DNA of 34,199 bases from an uncultured Bacilli bacterium (lineage in GTDB: Bacteria; Bacillota_I; Bacilli_A; RF39; UBA660). This document shows, piece by piece, positions 3,130 through 13,131 of the stretch; position 1 is the stretch's first letter; each line of letters starts with the position of its first letter. Under the pieces are notes generated by a model, which saw only the letters and a program-made list of their open reading frames with translations, had not been told where the DNA came from and searched no databases. The position numbers were made by a program, and so were the translations under genes. The stretch covers positions 1-34,199 of the forward strand of contig CANRPY010000014.1 of NCBI GenBank assembly GCA_947632595.1, in the 5' to 3' direction.

Positions 3130-3149
3130 TTATTTAGGAGGATTTCAAT

Positions 3150-4817
3150 ATGAAATATGATGTTTGTGTGATTGGTGGTTGTTCTTTAGACCAGACTTTT
3201 TTCCAAAAAGTAGATGGTAGTTATCCTGATGTTGCGGATACGATTTCTCCTGGAGGAAAAGGGGCAAATCAAGCAGTTGCTGCTGCAAAAGCTGGGGCTA
3301 AAACCGTAATGCTTTCTAGACTTGGTAAAGATGATATTGGTAAGAAGATTCTTGATAATTTAAATTTTTATCATGTAGATACTTCTTACGTTGAAATCGA
3401 TGATAAAATTACGAATGATTATTCTAATATTTATATTCAATTACAAGATAAAGATAATGATATCGTTCGTTTTAGTGGTGCTATTAATAGTTTTACTCCT
3501 GATATGATTGATCGTTATCAAGATATTTTACTTCGTTCTAAGATTATTGCTTGTCAGTTAAAAGTACCAAAAGAAGTTACAAAAGCTTTGATTGAGTTTT
3601 GTGATTCTCATAAAAAGATTTTAGTACTTACTCCATGTCGTCCTGAAAAACTTAATATTTTAGAGGAAGGTAATTTGGAACTTATTGATAAGATTTCGAT
3701 TATTACTTGTAATCAAAAGGAATGTAGCACAATTTTTGGTACAGAGGATGTTTTGGAAGTTGTTAAAAAATATCCAAATAAATTAATTGTTACCTTAGGT
3801 AGTGAAGGATTGGTCTACTATAATGGTACTAGAGTTGTTCATATGCCTGCGATTAGTACAGATGTTGTAGATACAACGGGAGCAGGGGATACTTTAAATG
3901 GTAATTTATGTGCTTTTCTTTCGAAAGGAATGGACTTAGAACATGCTCTTAGAAAAGCAATGTATGCATCTGCCATGAAACTTACTAAAAGTACGGCTCA
4001 AGCAGGTATGCCTTATTTAGAAGATTTAGAGAATTATATTCAAACAAAGAGAAATCGTAAATTTGCTTATCATGAAGAGTTGGATTTGGCATTACAAATA
4101 ATGAAGGATGCTTATGACATTGTACGTTATACAACACAATTTCAAATTCATACAAAAGCAGATCATACATTGGTTACTAGTGTTGATCTTGCTATTGAAG
4201 AGTATTTAACGAGTAAAATAAAAGAGAAGTTTCCAAATGATAATTTTGTAACGGAAGAGTTTCATCCTACTGGTAAATTATGTGATAGAAGTTGGGTCAT
4301 AGATCCTATTGATGGAACGGCTCATTTTGTAAAAAAAGATGGTTTATGGGGAATTCAACTTGCTTTCTATGATAAAGAAGATACTAGATTTTCTGTTATT
4401 TATTTACCAGAAAAGAAAGAACTTTATTATGCTGCAGAAAATATAGGGGCTTTCTTAAACAATAATAAAATTCTTTTGGGGGATGAAGTCCCTTTAGAGC
4501 AAGCTGTTCTTGAGTTTGGGGGATCTATCTATAAAGAGATGGATACGAAAAAGATGGTACTTAATAAAATTATTCAAAAAAATCATTTGATTTTATCGAA
4601 TGTTTTACAAATTAATGCTTGTTGTATTTCTTATACCAATTTAGCTTCTCGCAGAACGGATGCTTTGGTTGTTTCTACGGTTAAACCATGGGACATTATG
4701 CCAGGGGAGTTTATATGTAGGATGTGTCATATTCCTCACCATTACTTAGATGGAAAAGAGACGGTTCGTTTATTTACTAGAAATCAGAAAATCGTAGATG
4801 CTATTTTATCAAAGTAG
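3150..4817 (+). CDS. Fused ribokinase-like (PfkB) kinase and inositol-monophosphatase-family phosphatase
   Basis: A 555-aa two-domain protein. Residues 1-295 are a PfkB/ribokinase-type sugar kinase: GGKGANQAVAAA at 35-46 (the ribokinase sugar-binding signature) and DTTGAGD at 241-247 with catalytic base D247. After a linker, residues 308-555 form an inositol-monophosphatase/FBPase-superfamily domain: VTSVD (342-346), acidic pair E369-E370, DPIDGT (385-390) and WD (514-515), the usual three metal-binding motifs. Both active sites look complete. Each domain is normally a separate enzyme of 250-300 aa. A kinase joined to a phosphatase suggests either a kinase/phosphatase pair acting on one sugar phosphate or sequential steps; the substrate cannot be read from the sequence. 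AGGAGG precedes ATG3150. A GNAT gene follows directly. Confidence 0.88.
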   Translation: MKYDVCVIGGCSLDQTFFQKVDGSYPDVADTISPGGKGANQAVAAAKAGAKTVMLSRLGKDDIGKKILDNLNFYHVDTSYVEIDDKITNDYSNIYIQLQDKDNDIVRFSGAINSFTPDMIDRYQDILLRSKIIACQLKVPKEVTKALIEFCDSHKKILVLTPCRPEKLNILEEGNLELIDKISIITCNQKECSTIFGTEDVLEVVKKYPNKLIVTLGSEGLVYYNGTRVVHMPAISTDVVDTTGAGDTLNGNLCAFLSKGMDLEHALRKAMYASAMKLTKSTAQAGMPYLEDLENYIQTKRNRKFAYHEELDLALQIMKDAYDIVRYTTQFQIHTKADHTLVTSVDLAIEEYLTSKIKEKFPNDNFVTEEFHPTGKLCDRSWVIDPIDGTAHFVKKDGLWGIQLAFYDKEDTRFSVIYLPEKKELYYAAENIGAFLNNNKILLGDEVPLEQAVLEFGGSIYKEMDTKKMVLNKIIQKNHLILSNVLQINACCISYTNLASRRTDALVVSTVKPWDIMPGEFICRMCHIPHHYLDGKETVRLFTRNQKIVDAILSK

Positions 4818-7025: not shown

Positions 7026-7048
7026 GTATATGATAAGAAGGTGTGTTA

Positions 7049-7948
7049 ATGAAAGCTTTGTGTGTTGGACACTCAACGTATGATACTACGTTACCTGTAG
7101 ATTTTTATCCTGAAGAGAATTTAAAATATCGTATTAAAAGACAAATTGTTTGTGGTGGAGGACCTGCTTCTAATGGTGCTTATTTACTTGCAAAATGGGG
7201 ATTTGATACAACTATTGTTTCGGTAGTTGGAGATGATTTTTACGGAGATAAAGTAATTGATGACTTTGAAAAAATAGGTGCAAATACGGAATATTTATTA
7301 AAGTATCCTGGTTATCATACTTCTAGTAGTTATATTATTGCAAATATGAGTAATGGATCTCGTACAATTCTTACTTCTAGAATTGCTCCTGTTCGTAAGA
7401 TTGATAAAGAAATTACAGTTACTGATGCTGATGTTATTCTAATTGATGGAGAACATCCGGAAAGTGCGATGGATGCTTTACAAAAGAATCCGAATGCTAT
7501 TTCTGTTTTAGATGCTGGAAGATTAAATGATGATACTAGGGCTCTTGGAAAAATGGTTACTTATCTTATTTGCAGTCATGATTTTGCAGAAGAGTTTTCT
7601 GGTATGAAGACAGATGTTAGAGATTTTAATACTTTGGTCGCTATTTATGAGAAATTAAGAGAATATTTTCAGACTAATGTTATTATTACTTTGGAAGCAA
7701 ATGGATCTTTTACTATGATCAATGGTGTTTATCGTATTATTCCAAGTGTTTCTGTAAAAGCTTTAGATTCTACTGGAGCTGGAGATATTTTTCATGGAGC
7801 ATTTACCTATTTTATTGGAATGGGATATCCTTTAGAAGAGGCGATTCGTTGTTCTTCTATTACTAGTGCTATCTCTGTTACTAGAATTGGATCTCGTTTT
7901 TCTATTCCTAATTTATCGGAAGTGTTAGAATATAATGATGTTATATAA
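7049..7948 (+). CDS. PfkB-family carbohydrate kinase
   Basis: A 299-aa sugar kinase of the ribokinase/PfkB family. GGGPASNGAYLLAKWG (36-51) is the substrate-binding signature and DSTGAGD (240-246) carries catalytic base D246; the C-terminal helix-strand segment is complete. Start ATG7049 sits after AAGGTG; the in-frame GTG7043 is inside that site. The GGGPASN form differs from the GGKGANQ of the kinase fused to a phosphatase at 3150, so the two kinases probably use different sugars. It overlaps the Smr gene. The substrate (fructose, ribose, nucleoside or other) is not determinable. Confidence 0.88.
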   Translation: MKALCVGHSTYDTTLPVDFYPEENLKYRIKRQIVCGGGPASNGAYLLAKWGFDTTIVSVVGDDFYGDKVIDDFEKIGANTEYLLKYPGYHTSSSYIIANMSNGSRTILTSRIAPVRKIDKEITVTDADVILIDGEHPESAMDALQKNPNAISVLDAGRLNDDTRALGKMVTYLICSHDFAEEFSGMKTDVRDFNTLVAIYEKLREYFQTNVIITLEANGSFTMINGVYRIIPSVSVKALDSTGAGDIFHGAFTYFIGMGYPLEEAIRCSSITSAISVTRIGSRFSIPNLSEVLEYNDVI

Positions 7949-8248: not shown

Positions 8249-10228
8249 ATGTACACAGAAGAGTACGAAAAAAGGGGATTTCCTATTAAGGGCTTTTTTA
8301 TTAAGCTTTTATTGGTAATAATCATTGTACTTTTATTATTATGGTTAGTACCAAAATTATTTACTTCAAAGGCAGATTCTAAAAGTAGTTCAAGTTGTAG
8401 TGGGAGCGATACTTGTGATACTTCTAGTATTCGTGCTTTAACATCTCAAATTTTTGCAGATAACCTTGAAAGAATGAGAGATGCTGCCATTCCATATTAT
8501 ACTGCAGAAAGACTTCCTAAACAGGTAGGGGAGTCTGTTCAAATGACTCTTAGTGATATGATTGGTAAAAAATTAATTGTTCCACTTATTGATCAAAATG
8601 GAAAAGCAGTTGATGTTGAGAAGAGTTATGTTAAAGTTACTAAAATGGATGATGAATATCTTTTAAAAGTTAATTTAAAAGATAGTGAAGATGAGGATTA
8701 TATCTTAGTTCATTTAGGTTGCTATGCATACTGCGATTCTTATGTTTGTCAAAAACAAACTTCAACTTCTGTTGGAACTAAGTCAGGAGTTACGAATCCT
8801 GTTGTACCAGGAAAGCCAACGGTTTCTACAACGACACCATCTAATCCTAAATGTGTTGCAAACGGAAATAAATATTATGATCGTAATGGTAATCGTGTTT
8901 CTGAGGTGGATTACCTTAAGAGTTGTCAAGCTCCTAAATGCCAAATCGTTAATGGATACTATTTTGGTTATAATGGTAACTCTGTTACAAAATCTAGATA
9001 TGAAAGTGAATGTAAGGGAAGTACTACTCCAACTTATACATGTACTTATCGTAATGGTAAATACTATGATCGTAAGGGTAAGGTAGTTTCTCATGTTGAT
9101 TATATTATTAGCTGTATGGCTCCAAAATGTGAAATCGTAGATGGTTACTATTTTGGTAAATATGGTGATAAAGTAACGAAATCTACTTATGAGAGACAAT
9201 GTGAGGATGATACTCCAACTTATACATGTACTTATCGTAATGGTAAATACTATGATCGTAAAGGTAACGTAGTATCTCATGTTGATTACATTATTAGCTG
9301 TATGGCTCCAAAATGTGAAATCGTAGATGGATATTATTTTGGTAAATATGGTGATAAAGTAAGTAAATCTACTTATGAAAAAGAATGTGGTAGTCAAAAA
9401 GTAGAATACTTATATGAATATGAAAAAACAACAGGAGCTAGATTCTCTTCTTGGACAAATTGGAGTGCTTGGGATAAAACAAATTGTAGTACTCAAGAGA
9501 TTAATTGTAATGATTCTGATCCATCTTGTTTATTCAAACTTCAAATGTTAACAAGAAAAGAAAAAATTGGAACTTATCAAAAAACATATGCAAAAACAAG
9601 AGAAGTTCAAAAACAAACTGGTTCTTATAATTTAAAGAGTTGTGCTAACTATAATTATGTAGAAATTAATTCTAAATTATATGCTACTACAACGACAACA
9701 ACTTATACGACAATTGAGACAATTACTTCTACAACTTCTAAGTCTGTTGGTACTTGGAAATTTAATGGACGTGCAAGTTATAGTAATCCACCAAGAGATA
9801 CAGAATCTACTCATTATAAATTTGTAGGTGCTGATTATAGTTATTGTGGTGAGACTTGTACTACATTACCTAACTATTATTATGATTCTTATACTTATAC
9901 AGGTGGTTTAGCAAATGTTAGTTCAACAACAAGTTCTACTACAACATCTGGAACACCTTTAAGTGAGACTCATTTAGTAGGACAAACGACTTCTTATGCT
10001 GCTAGCTGCGGAGAATATGTTTATAAAACAATTCCTATTTATGGAACAATAACTGTTACTGAGAAAGCAACTAGAACAGAGCCTTTATATGGTGAAGTTT
10101 GCTATAAGAGTACAAAATCAAGAGAATTAATTAGCAAAGGTACTACTCAAACAAAATGGAGTTATTATAATAATACTTCCTTATTAAATGATGGTTGGGT
10201 ATATACTGGTAGAAGAAAGGTTAAATAA
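8249..10228 (+). CDS. Membrane-anchored cysteine-rich surface protein with tandem repeats
   Basis: A 659-aa protein with one membrane helix (about 15-37) after a short charged N-terminus, so nearly all of it is outside the cell. Order outside: Ser-rich linker; a roughly 100-residue globular region (60-168) ending in C158/C162/C167; a Ser/Thr/Pro linker; three repeats of about 62-64 residues built on (C)..NGKYYDR.G..VS.VDY...C.APKC.IV.GYYFG (about 196-383); a segment with three evenly spaced tryptophans, WTNWSAW; then a Thr/Tyr/Ser-rich C-terminal half with paired cysteines. The many cysteines suggest disulfide-stabilised modules. The Thr/Ser-rich stretches are plausible targets of the PMT encoded at 5328. 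It shares a promoter with the next gene (14-bp gap). Function unknown; adhesion or wall association is inference. Confidence 0.8.
   Translation: MYTEEYEKRGFPIKGFFIKLLLVIIIVLLLLWLVPKLFTSKADSKSSSSCSGSDTCDTSSIRALTSQIFADNLERMRDAAIPYYTAERLPKQVGESVQMTLSDMIGKKLIVPLIDQNGKAVDVEKSYVKVTKMDDEYLLKVNLKDSEDEDYILVHLGCYAYCDSYVCQKQTSTSVGTKSGVTNPVVPGKPTVSTTTPSNPKCVANGNKYYDRNGNRVSEVDYLKSCQAPKCQIVNGYYFGYNGNSVTKSRYESECKGSTTPTYTCTYRNGKYYDRKGKVVSHVDYIISCMAPKCEIVDGYYFGKYGDKVTKSTYERQCEDDTPTYTCTYRNGKYYDRKGNVVSHVDYIISCMAPKCEIVDGYYFGKYGDKVSKSTYEKECGSQKVEYLYEYEKTTGARFSSWTNWSAWDKTNCSTQEINCNDSDPSCLFKLQMLTRKEKIGTYQKTYAKTREVQKQTGSYNLKSCANYNYVEINSKLYATTTTTTYTTIETITSTTSKSVGTWKFNGRASYSNPPRDTESTHYKFVGADYSYCGETCTTLPNYYYDSYTYTGGLANVSSTTSSTTTSGTPLSETHLVGQTTSYAASCGEYVYKTIPIYGTITVTEKATRTEPLYGEVCYKSTKSRELISKGTTQTKWSYYNNTSLLNDGWVYTGRRKVK
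8834..9397 (+). repeat. Three tandem coding repeats (192 + 186 + 186 bp)
   Basis: Copies start at 8834, 9026 and 9212. The second and third (9026-9211, 9212-9397) are nearly identical at DNA level with a 186-bp period (62 codons); the first is diverged and about two codons longer. The near identity implies recent duplication or gene conversion, and the copy number may vary between strains. Confidence 0.9.
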
Positions 10229-10242
10229 GAGGGGTGTTTTCT

Positions 10243-13131
10243 ATGTATAAGAAAATTGCTAATATTGTTTTCTATAAAGTTTCTCAAGGAAATAAATTTG
10301 TAAAACAAGCAACTATCTTCTTTATGGATGGTACGATTCGAACAGTAACATTTGATGAAGGTATTGATGCTTGTGAACAAATTGTTCGAGAGAGAAATAT
10401 TCAAACAAAAGATGCTTTTCAAGCAATGATTAATCACGATATTGTTCATGTAGTTTCTGCAAAGGAATTTGATGATCATTTCGAAGATTATATTCCACAA
10501 GTTAAGAGTATTGAAGAAAGTGGCGCAGTTTATACTCGTAAAATGCCTGTTTCTCCTGCTCATTCATCTAAAAAGGGTGAAGATATGTCATCTTCTTCTC
10601 CAAGAGTGAATCCTGTTGTTAGTCAATCTGTAGACTCTATGAGAAGAGAGAAAACTTCTATCCCAACAGATATTCCTGTTACTGGAGAGGAAGACGAGGA
10701 TGATTTCTCTCGTGGAGATTCCACGGAGATTCCTAGCCCTGTTGTTTCTACTCCAATTTCTACAGGAACTCAAGAAAATCATAAAAATAATGATGGACTA
10801 TATCACTTTGATGATGAAGAGGAAGACGTTCAAGCTGACTCTAGAGGAGCATCTACTCCTTCTACGGGAGAGGATGGTCTATATCACTTCGATGATGAAG
10901 AAAATATAGATGTTCAAGCTGACTCTAGAGGCTCATCTACTCCTTCTCCAAGTGATGATGGATTATATCACTTTCATGATACGGAAGATGTTGATGCTGC
11001 TTCTATAGGTGTCGTAACTCCTTCTACAACTAGTGATGGAGAGGATACTCACAAAGAAGATTCTGCTTCTGATGATTCTATTTTTATTGATTCATCTGAT
11101 GGAACTGTTGACTCTTCTGATCAAACATCAGAATCTACTGATCAAGATGATATGGTTGACTTATATGAGTTTGTTGATGGAAGTCAACCTGTTACTTCTC
11201 AAGCAAGAGGAAATGCTTCTTCTACAGGAGAGAGTACTAGCGTGGAATCTGATGGCAAAGAGTTCTTTGAACAAGATGCAGGAGATGATTTTACCCCTCT
11301 TGCAGATGAGTCAACTCCACTTAGTGATTCTGCCTCTGCTAGTTCTTTTGATGATGACGAAATTCAAGAAGGTGATGGATTCTTCAAAAGATTATGGAAG
11401 AAGATTAAGAAAAATAGTCTTGTTAAACGTATCGTTTTATGTGTTACTGCTTTTGCAGTTGCTATAGGACTTGTCTCTTGTTCTCATCGTAAATCATTAG
11501 AAGGTGAAATGTATCAAAGCAATCTTACTTCTGCATCTGATACTTTACTAGATGGTGATGAAGAACTTATTTTTGGAGAATATGATAATCCTAATATTGT
11601 TCATAGTAGTGTTTTAGAAGATAAACAAGTTGCTGAGTTACTCAAAAATACAAAGAATGAATTCCAAAAAGGTGCTATGACTCATTTAGGAGAAGCCATG
11701 GACGGATTTAATAATGTTTTCTCTGCTTATTATATGGAAGAGGGAAAAGATGTTCGTGCTACTTTAAAATTTGAAGAGGCTGCTGCTTTACAAGTTGCCT
11801 ATAATGATTATTCTAAGGATCAATTAAAAGCTTACTTTAATGGTTCTGATATTCGCGCAGAAGATTTTACTCGATCTTATAAAGATGCTTCTTTACAATT
11901 AATGGGTGCTTATGCGATGGAAAATCAAGAACATCCTGTTGATATGTCTATGCTAATAGACTCTCAAGAAGGAAAAGATTTTTATCAAAAATACCATAAG
12001 GCATTCCTTGCTGCTAAGAGTGCAGAAGGAGAAGAACAGATTCGCCTTGTAAATGAATTTTATGCTATGGTACGTGATGATTTTCCAATTACGGAAAAGG
12101 TTCGTACAGAAGGTATTTCTCATGCAGAAAACTATGGAGAGTTAGCAGCTTATAAGTTATCTGTTGCTCCTATGATTGCTGCAGGGGAAACTTTATGGCA
12201 AAATTTAGATGTTGATCATACTTTAGTAGATGGTGAAATTGATTTTCTAAATGATTTAGGTTTATGTAATTATGCAGATAAGAGTTTTGAAAGAGCAGAG
12301 CTAATTGCTTTAACAACTCCTCAGGATGAAGATAATCCTAAATATTCTCAATATCAAGAAGCTTTTGAAGCATATTATCGTGATCACAATATTTATTATG
12401 TTGATGATGAACATCGCGAATTAACTCTTTTAGATTCTTTCCAAGATGCCGTTAATGGTCACTTTAATATTGTTGATGGAGAAGATGTATCTTCTTATGA
12501 GGGAGAGACTTCTACTTCTACTGAAACACATACAAAGACTTCTACTCATACAAAGACTACAACAACGACCCACGAAGAAACTACTACCAAAAATATTCCT
12601 ATTACGGATGAGGCAAAAGAACAAGTAGATCGTGAGATTGATGAGGAAAATGCTCGTGCGAAAGCAGAAGCTGAAAGACAAGCTGAAGAAGAAAGAAGAA
12701 GATTGCAAGAAGAAGCTGATAGACAAGCAGAACAAGTTCATGAAGAGGTTCGTCAAGATGATCAGGATTTACAAGATAAGATTGATGAAGCTAATCAACA
12801 AATTGATCAAAATCAATCTGATCATAATCCCGGTAATGATACTCCTGTAAATGAGGGAGATCTTGGACATGGAGTGGATTTTGATGATGATCATTCTGAT
12901 CAGAATGGTAATCTTGATCCATCTGTTGGAGGTATTACTACGGATCCATCTGGAGATCAATCCGATGAACCATTACCAGATCCAAACTTAACTGGTGCAG
13001 ACTTTGATGCTCGTGGAGATTCTTATTATTCTGCTACTGTTAGTTACTCATCTGCTGTTGATGAATACGTTGAGTCTTTAGCAGGGGATTCTTATTCTGA
13101 ATCTGGTTATGCTTATCAATATACAAAATAA
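10243..13131 (+). CDS. Large single-pass membrane protein with acidic repeats and coiled coil
   Basis: A 962-aa protein. Residues 1-90 form a small globular domain; 110-380 is a long acidic, Ser/Thr/Pro-rich disordered region that includes three DGLYHF repeats; a basic stretch (KRLWKKIKKN, 382-391) precedes one membrane helix (about 395-413), which by the positive-inside rule puts the acidic half in the cytoplasm and the rest outside. The ectodomain begins with a mainly helical region (430-750), then a Thr-rich linker (757-786), a Glu/Arg/Ala coiled coil (788-858), an Asp-rich part and a Ser/Tyr C-terminus. ATG10243 follows GAGGGG; the in-frame GTG10234 lies within that site. It is co-transcribed with the repeat protein upstream. 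No known family recognised; the layout suggests a scaffold linking cytoplasm and envelope. Confidence 0.78.
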   Translation: MYKKIANIVFYKVSQGNKFVKQATIFFMDGTIRTVTFDEGIDACEQIVRERNIQTKDAFQAMINHDIVHVVSAKEFDDHFEDYIPQVKSIEESGAVYTRKMPVSPAHSSKKGEDMSSSSPRVNPVVSQSVDSMRREKTSIPTDIPVTGEEDEDDFSRGDSTEIPSPVVSTPISTGTQENHKNNDGLYHFDDEEEDVQADSRGASTPSTGEDGLYHFDDEENIDVQADSRGSSTPSPSDDGLYHFHDTEDVDAASIGVVTPSTTSDGEDTHKEDSASDDSIFIDSSDGTVDSSDQTSESTDQDDMVDLYEFVDGSQPVTSQARGNASSTGESTSVESDGKEFFEQDAGDDFTPLADESTPLSDSASASSFDDDEIQEGDGFFKRLWKKIKKNSLVKRIVLCVTAFAVAIGLVSCSHRKSLEGEMYQSNLTSASDTLLDGDEELIFGEYDNPNIVHSSVLEDKQVAELLKNTKNEFQKGAMTHLGEAMDGFNNVFSAYYMEEGKDVRATLKFEEAAALQVAYNDYSKDQLKAYFNGSDIRAEDFTRSYKDASLQLMGAYAMENQEHPVDMSMLIDSQEGKDFYQKYHKAFLAAKSAEGEEQIRLVNEFYAMVRDDFPITEKVRTEGISHAENYGELAAYKLSVAPMIAAGETLWQNLDVDHTLVDGEIDFLNDLGLCNYADKSFERAELIALTTPQDEDNPKYSQYQEAFEAYYRDHNIYYVDDEHRELTLLDSFQDAVNGHFNIVDGEDVSSYEGETSTSTETHTKTSTHTKTTTTTHEETTTKNIPITDEAKEQVDREIDEENARAKAEAERQAEEERRRLQEEADRQAEQVHEEVRQDDQDLQDKIDEANQQIDQNQSDHNPGNDTPVNEGDLGHGVDFDDDHSDQNGNLDPSVGGITTDPSGDQSDEPLPDPNLTGADFDARGDSYYSATVSYSSAVDEYVESLAGDSYSESGYAYQYTK
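10792..11040 (+). repeat. Three tandem coding repeats of about 81-84 bp
   Basis: Units start at 10792, 10873 and 10957. Each encodes DGLYHFDDEE..DVQADSRG.STPS or a variant; the third is the most diverged. Each unit holds one aromatic-histidine patch (LYHF) in an acidic Ser/Thr/Pro background, like a short linear binding motif. Confidence 0.85.

Follow-up and report, generated by a model that had tools for sequence, protein, structure and literature searches.

To our knowledge, few enzymes are known in which a small-molecule kinase and a phosphatase are carried by a single polypeptide chain. A gene from an uncultured Bacilli bacterium, located in a stretch of 34,199 nucleotides referred to here as the window, was originally predicted to code for such a protein, namely a ribokinase-like kinase followed by an inositol-monophosphatase-like phosphatase. 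The locus raises the questions of whether the two enzymes are genuinely joined, how they came to be joined, and what they might accomplish together in one chain.

One reading frame and two domains

The fusion gene (3150-4817, + strand) is a single open frame of 555 amino acids plus stop that starts with ATG, 8 bases downstream of a Shine-Dalgarno motif, AGGAGG, read from the sequence (3136-3141, +). A ribokinase-like PfkB kinase domain spans amino acids 4-288 (3159-4013, +; Pfam PF00294, E 1e-51) and an inositol-monophosphatase-fold phosphatase domain spans amino acids 314-524 (4089-4721, +; Pfam PF00459 Inositol_P, E 1.8e-34). The junction between them, amino acids 289-313 (4014-4088, +), corresponds to the overlap between the unfused genes in Clostridia bins (see below). 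Both matches lie far above the Pfam cut-offs (176.5 bits against 25.8 for PfkB, and 120 bits against 27 for Inositol_P, with the metal ligands E, DPxD, and D present), which places the two halves in their respective superfamilies and bears out the prediction of a fusion. The catalytic motifs also fall at the residues first proposed: GAGD (3879-3890, +) ends in the catalytic base Asp247, the counterpart of Asp255 of E. coli ribokinase; DPIDGT (4302-4319, +) contains the metal-binding residues D385 and D388, which are metal ligands together with E369 and D515; and the third metal-ligand motif, identified from the sequence and the clade alignment, is W514-D515 (4689-4694, +). These motifs were kept in all five intact fusions first aligned, and the catalytic residues of both halves are kept in every intact copy. 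The full chain is predicted with pLDDT 91.8 and pTM 0.86. A genuine bifunctional enzyme is the best explanation of the protein. The source genome is a 1.4 Mb bin, 95% complete, in which the fusion is present as a single copy and which also codes for two inositol monophosphatases (IMPases) of another clade and for a distant second PfkB kinase (7043-7948).

The probability that sequencing or assembly merely joined two genes is negligible. All copies of the fusion come from metagenome bins, and one copy of approximately 55% identity in a Clostridia bin (L056, 4989-6679) is spread over three frames, being either a decaying or broken gene or the product of a low-quality assembly. Against such an error stands the recurrence of the in-frame fusion in five other genome bins, at approximately 50-64% identity across the whole chain, which brings the intact copies to six with that of the window; the identical in-frame junction in six separate and mutually differing assemblies already refutes it. 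Full-length, stop-free homologues occur in three bins of the same genus (G001, G024, and G025, 62-64% identity; loci L005, L006, and L007 are among the full-length copies), in an uncultured Bacilli bin (L053, CANQHJ010000007.1, 62%) and in a distant Clostridia bin (G1016, L092/L103, 50%), which means that the frame cannot be put down to a local assembly error. Stops and frameshifts, one of two findings that by the original prediction's own account would refute it, are absent from the relatives except in the broken L056, and the key residues, whose inactivity would have been the other, are intact in all unbroken copies.

The fusion is rare and its spread patchy. Four of the 39 genomes of the genus carry it, as does one of 197 from the Clostridia family to which G799 belongs. 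Searching the order (288 genomes) with the single protein yielded no further fusion, nor did samples of the class (395 genomes) and of the phylum (392 genomes) at a threshold of E 1e-70; these wider searches begin with a loose first pass that weak or split copies may escape. Plasmid and phage collections held no place covering 80% of the fusion, and viral contigs held no relative of it. Its occurrence in bins labelled Bacilli and Clostridia, in varying gene surroundings, suggests transfer between gut lineages.

The neighboring genes were considered as a guide to the substrate and discarded, as no partner recurs across the window, G024, G001/G025, and L053. The fusion sits between an acyltransferase gene and a GNAT gene in the window, adjoins a flavodoxin-like gene in G024 and a separate IMPase in L053, and lies near a histidine-phosphatase-like gene in G001/G025; a position upstream of a mannosyltransferase-PfkB2 pair is common only to the window and G024. 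The distant second PfkB kinase of the window (7043-7948, +), of the GGPASN type, lies beside a MYTEEYE...GFP gene across the genus, has a PMT-type mannosyltransferase gene next to it in several genomes, and scores far under every curated kinase cut-off. Another gene of the window (8249-10228, +), conserved across the genus, codes for a membrane-anchored 659-aa protein with repeated Cys-containing units (YYDRNGNRVSEVDY...CQAPKC).

The sugar pocket of the kinase and the identity of the phosphatase

The kinase half resembles E. coli ribokinase in its fold over 291 residues (Z 38.0 and rmsd 2.1 for the predicted model against 1rk2; Z 37.7-38.0 in the comparison with RbsK, 1rkd), in its GGKGAN motif, in the GAGD aspartate and in the ATP-site residues N188 and E191. 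Gly36, Lys37, Asn40, and Asp247 are kept in all 15 members of its clade, and neither the ATP-site Asn/Glu nor the catalytic Asp has changed; Asp255 is the catalytic residue in the E. coli enzyme (PMC9604405). The differences, apart from the C-terminal phosphatase domain, lie at the sugar end, which was compared between the 15 clade members and 12 ribokinases, with positions mapped onto E. coli ribokinase through a phmmer alignment or, for Ser12/Asn14, taken from the family alignment. In E. coli ribokinase, Asn14 and Glu143 hydrogen-bond ribose, and a lid covers the sugar (PMC9604405). At the position of Glu143 the window kinase has Lys138 (3561-3563, +), which is Lys in 15/15 clade members and Glu in 12/12 ribokinases, and at that of Ile112 in the lid strand it has Arg107 (3468-3470, +), Arg in 14/15 and aliphatic in all 12 ribokinases. 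Asp90 replaces Gly96 (Asp in 15/15, Gly in 12/12), Ser12 stands at Asn14 (Ser in 14 members, Ala in one, and mostly Asn in ribokinases), and Thr161 replaces in the clade the Asn of NPAP. Of the three ribose contacts Asn14, Asp16, and Glu143, the Asp is kept and the other two are replaced, a combination that sets the protein apart from ribokinases. The curated family scores agree: the best match is the ribokinase equivalog TIGR02152, whose cut-off of 299.65 bits is reached neither by the window kinase (201.3 bits) nor by the other clade members tested (171-198 bits), whereas the lone ribokinase L024 passes with 330.8 bits. Judged from its sequence, the kinase is a descendant of ribokinase with a rebuilt sugar pocket, and the two new positive charges brought by Lys138 and Arg107 suggest an anionic acceptor that bears a phosphate or a carboxylate. 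This conserved pocket change makes one metabolic step experimentally approachable in gut bacteria with small genomes, whose biochemistry has hardly been studied.

In the phosphatase half, D385, D388, T390, E369, E370, D515, and K336 are kept in 10/10 members of its clade. This half was modelled and used for structure searches alone (pLDDT 95.5, pTM 0.92); with the whole fusion as query, the matches listed were all taken up by kinases. The isolated model matches SuhB/IMPase best (Z 28.7, 2.4 Å over 242 residues), with NADP phosphatase, PAP phosphatase, and histidinol phosphatase ranking lower (range Z 25-29). The inositol-monophosphatase superfamily includes bisphosphate, sugar-phosphate, and nucleotide phosphatases. 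While the window phosphatase shares the whole fold and all metal ligands of the SuhB/IMPase/HisN superfamily, it falls under the cut-off of each specific family that it matches: HisN (TIGR02067, 103.4 bits against 275.15), inositol-1-monophosphatase (NF008027, 73.9 against 332), CysQ, the 3′(2′),5′-bisphosphate nucleotidase (TIGR01331, 68.7 against 228.8), and the bifunctional fructose-bisphosphatase/inositol-phosphate phosphatase (NF009321, 53.7 against 264).

Separate genes and a probable route to the fusion

Kinase and phosphatase are also encoded by separate genes in three Clostridia bins that belong to the family of G799. In G1072, the kinase gene (L109, 8754-9659, -) is followed by the phosphatase gene (L109, 7963-8754, -) with a 4-base ATGA overlap, and in G1018 the kinase gene (L104, 8801-9727, +) is followed by the phosphatase gene (9708-10478, +) with a 23-base overlap; the gene order of both pairs is the domain order of the fusion. 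In G1007, the two genes are unlinked and lie on different contigs (L105 and L106), the phosphatase retaining the same neighbors. Since all three states, fused, overlapping, and unlinked, are preserved, the steps that led to the fusion can be traced. The junction of the fusion coincides with the overlap of the separate genes, the kinase tail being followed by the phosphatase start ...FxYxxEL, and the start ...FKYEKEL... of the L104 phosphatase aligns with FAYHEEL of the window. One frame change inside the overlap would suffice; the fusion would have arisen from an overlapping, translationally coupled gene pair whose overlap lost the stop codon and the frame of the kinase gene.

The phylogenies of the two halves were built separately. 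In the kinase tree, a single clade (support 100/100) unites the 15 sequences that have Lys at position 138; its nearest relative, L024, is a genuine ribokinase encoded within a cluster of ribose-transport genes. In the phosphatase tree, which was repeated without the long-branched outgroup, the seven fusion phosphatases, including that of the broken L056, form one clade (99/96) that is sister to three operon or split phosphatases (joint support 99/99). The clade of each half mixes fused and unfused forms, and the simplest reading is that a coupled gene pair fused once. The lone kinases of Coprosoma genomes (63% identity) are placed among the fusions in the kinase tree; constraining the fusions as one clade gives a p-AU of 0.356, so that this alternative topology is not rejected, and the Coprosoma lineage possibly lost the phosphatase. 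Two of these genomes, G796 and G797, carry lone kinases of the clade with no phosphatase match in the genome, which indicates that the kinase does not require the fusion. Among the fusions, the phosphatase half diverges faster than the kinase half (approximately 57% against 68% identity).

Precedents and possible roles of the paired activities

Close parallels are found in methanogens, where MJ0917 of Methanocaldococcus and MMP1489 are fused NAD kinase/NADPases ascribed to the overlap of two genes (PMC8553519). Like the window protein, they unite a kinase and a phosphatase of the IMPase superfamily in one chain, but their kinase is an NAD kinase of a different fold family, whereas that of the window is PfkB/ribokinase-like; Pfam and NCBIfam scans found no NAD-kinase domain in the window fusion, which is therefore not of the MJ0917 type. 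Among PfkB-family kinases, there is precedent for the phosphorylation of a sugar phosphate to a bisphosphate, ribose 1-phosphate being converted to ribose 1,5-bisphosphate by an enzyme that, unlike the window kinase, is unfused and feeds ribose-1,5-bisphosphate isomerase (PMC9700705). Against NF053626 the window kinase scores 54.6 bits of 330, below that family, a score that leaves the activity possible. In heptose biosynthesis (HldE, HldA/GmhB), a kinase of the ribokinase family produces a sugar bisphosphate, from which a phosphatase takes off the other phosphate, a functional model for the window protein that differs from it in that HldE is fused to an adenylyltransferase and GmhB is a HAD phosphatase encoded by a separate gene. 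A search of the openly accessible literature found no description of a PfkB-inositol monophosphatase fusion, in keeping with the initial impression that no enzyme with this order had been described; a domain-architecture database may nevertheless list it. Each of the two domain families is well known in itself, and what is apparently new, at least to us, is their arrangement and the clade of Lys-type kinases.

One kinase type has repeatedly been paired with one phosphatase clade, in overlapping genes and then in one chain, which argues for a metabolite shared by the two activities. The original prediction proposed either a sugar-phosphate switch or channelled steps, and the clade-specific change of the ribose pocket tilts the choice slightly toward sequential steps. 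Because the kinase acceptor probably carries a charge from the start, resolution of a bisphosphate intermediate by the phosphatase is slightly favored over opposing activities, as a tentative reading to which we give a little less than an even chance. The pocket changes (Glu to Lys, lid Ile to Arg, Asn to Ser, and Gly to Asp) would fit a sugar- or nucleoside-type acceptor with an anionic group, in the simplest case a sugar phosphate with its phosphate at the C1 end; the kinase would convert it to a bisphosphate with ATP, the C-terminal Mg-dependent phosphatase would then remove the phosphate at the other position, and in effect ATP would pay for relocating or clearing a sugar phosphate. The six intact fusions, the overlapping pairs of the same order, the joint phosphatase clade, the Lys138 kinase clade, and the confident fold models of both halves speak for such sequential steps. 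Against them, the gene surroundings differ between genomes and no conserved operon partner points to a pathway, some genomes of the kinase clade are without a phosphatase match, so that the phosphatase step is not essential everywhere, and a carboxylate or a nucleobase would be an equally possible ligand of Lys138 and Arg107. The bolder proposal of a phosphate-relocating family of gut Firmicutes, making and then removing a bisphosphate with ATP and acting in effect as a mutase or in the salvage of a sugar or nucleoside phosphate, is unlikely. One specific version of the sequential reading, the bypass of phosphopentomutase (ribose 1-phosphate to ribose 1,5-bisphosphate to ribose 5-phosphate), was dropped for want of gene-content support: deoB scores above cut-off in 32 of the 39 genus genomes, and all four fusion carriers are among them. 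As the genomes keep phosphopentomutase, we do not commit to this route, although the reaction itself may take place.

The phosphatase could instead remove the very phosphate that the kinase adds, the two being under allosteric control and setting the level of one metabolite. MJ0917 and MMP1489, in which a phosphatase of the same superfamily opposes a kinase, set a precedent (PMC8553519), both catalytic sites are intact, and a 1:1 ratio is guaranteed by the fusion and favored by the overlapping gene pair. Such a switch nevertheless seems rather unlikely: no regulatory domain or insertion was seen, and an unregulated pair would waste ATP; the changes in the kinase pocket are compatible with it but left unexplained, and lone kinases exist. 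Decidedly unlikely is a housekeeping pairing, in which a broad clean-up phosphatase would deal with side products of the kinase or with other sugar phosphates and the fusion would be convenient rather than mechanistic. The faster divergence of the phosphatase half and the patchy distribution would fit it, as would the pairing or fusion of distant phosphatases of the branch with a deaminase (L030), a HAD hydrolase (L128), and an unclassified C-terminal extension (L026); the fusion and operon phosphatases, however, form a clade of their own with this one kinase type. That the protein is an ordinary ribokinase, turning ribose into ribose 5-phosphate and merely fused to a phosphatase, is highly improbable. 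TIGR02152 is indeed its best curated family, E. coli ribokinase its closest fold, and GGKGAN and GAGD are kept; but the kinase falls under a cut-off that the nearest lone ribokinase exceeds, the ribose-contacting Glu is Lys in 15/15 clade members, Ser stands at the Asn14 position in 14/15, and the true ribokinases L024, L121, L124, and L126 lie in ribose or nucleoside-hydrolase clusters while the fusion lies elsewhere.

Several other arrangements of these domain families were observed. A second two-domain enzyme of the same phosphatase branch has an IMPase fused behind a dCMP/cytidine-deaminase-like domain (PF00383; L030, 1042-2241, +), and two further IMPases carry C-terminal extensions of approximately 200 aa without a Pfam name (L026, 865-2169, -; L017, 1310-2761, +). 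In L128 and L133, an IMPase of a distant branch is fused to a HAD hydrolase. At four loci of Clostridia bins (L122, L123, L125, and L128, approximately 1.4-3.2 kb of each locus), an IMPase of the distant branch follows a gene of approximately 344 aa whose start (YDVFIAYHGSY...GLxCFYFP) resembles a TIR/SEFIR-type domain by eye and in which Pfam recognizes only DUF5919, in the C-terminal part; the two genes are possibly a small signalling or defence-like pair. Finally, lone true ribokinases that keep the ribose-contacting Glu (L121, L124, L126, L138, and L025) lie beside nucleoside-hydrolase-like genes, with which they likely form a salvage pair leading from nucleosides to ribose 5-phosphate.
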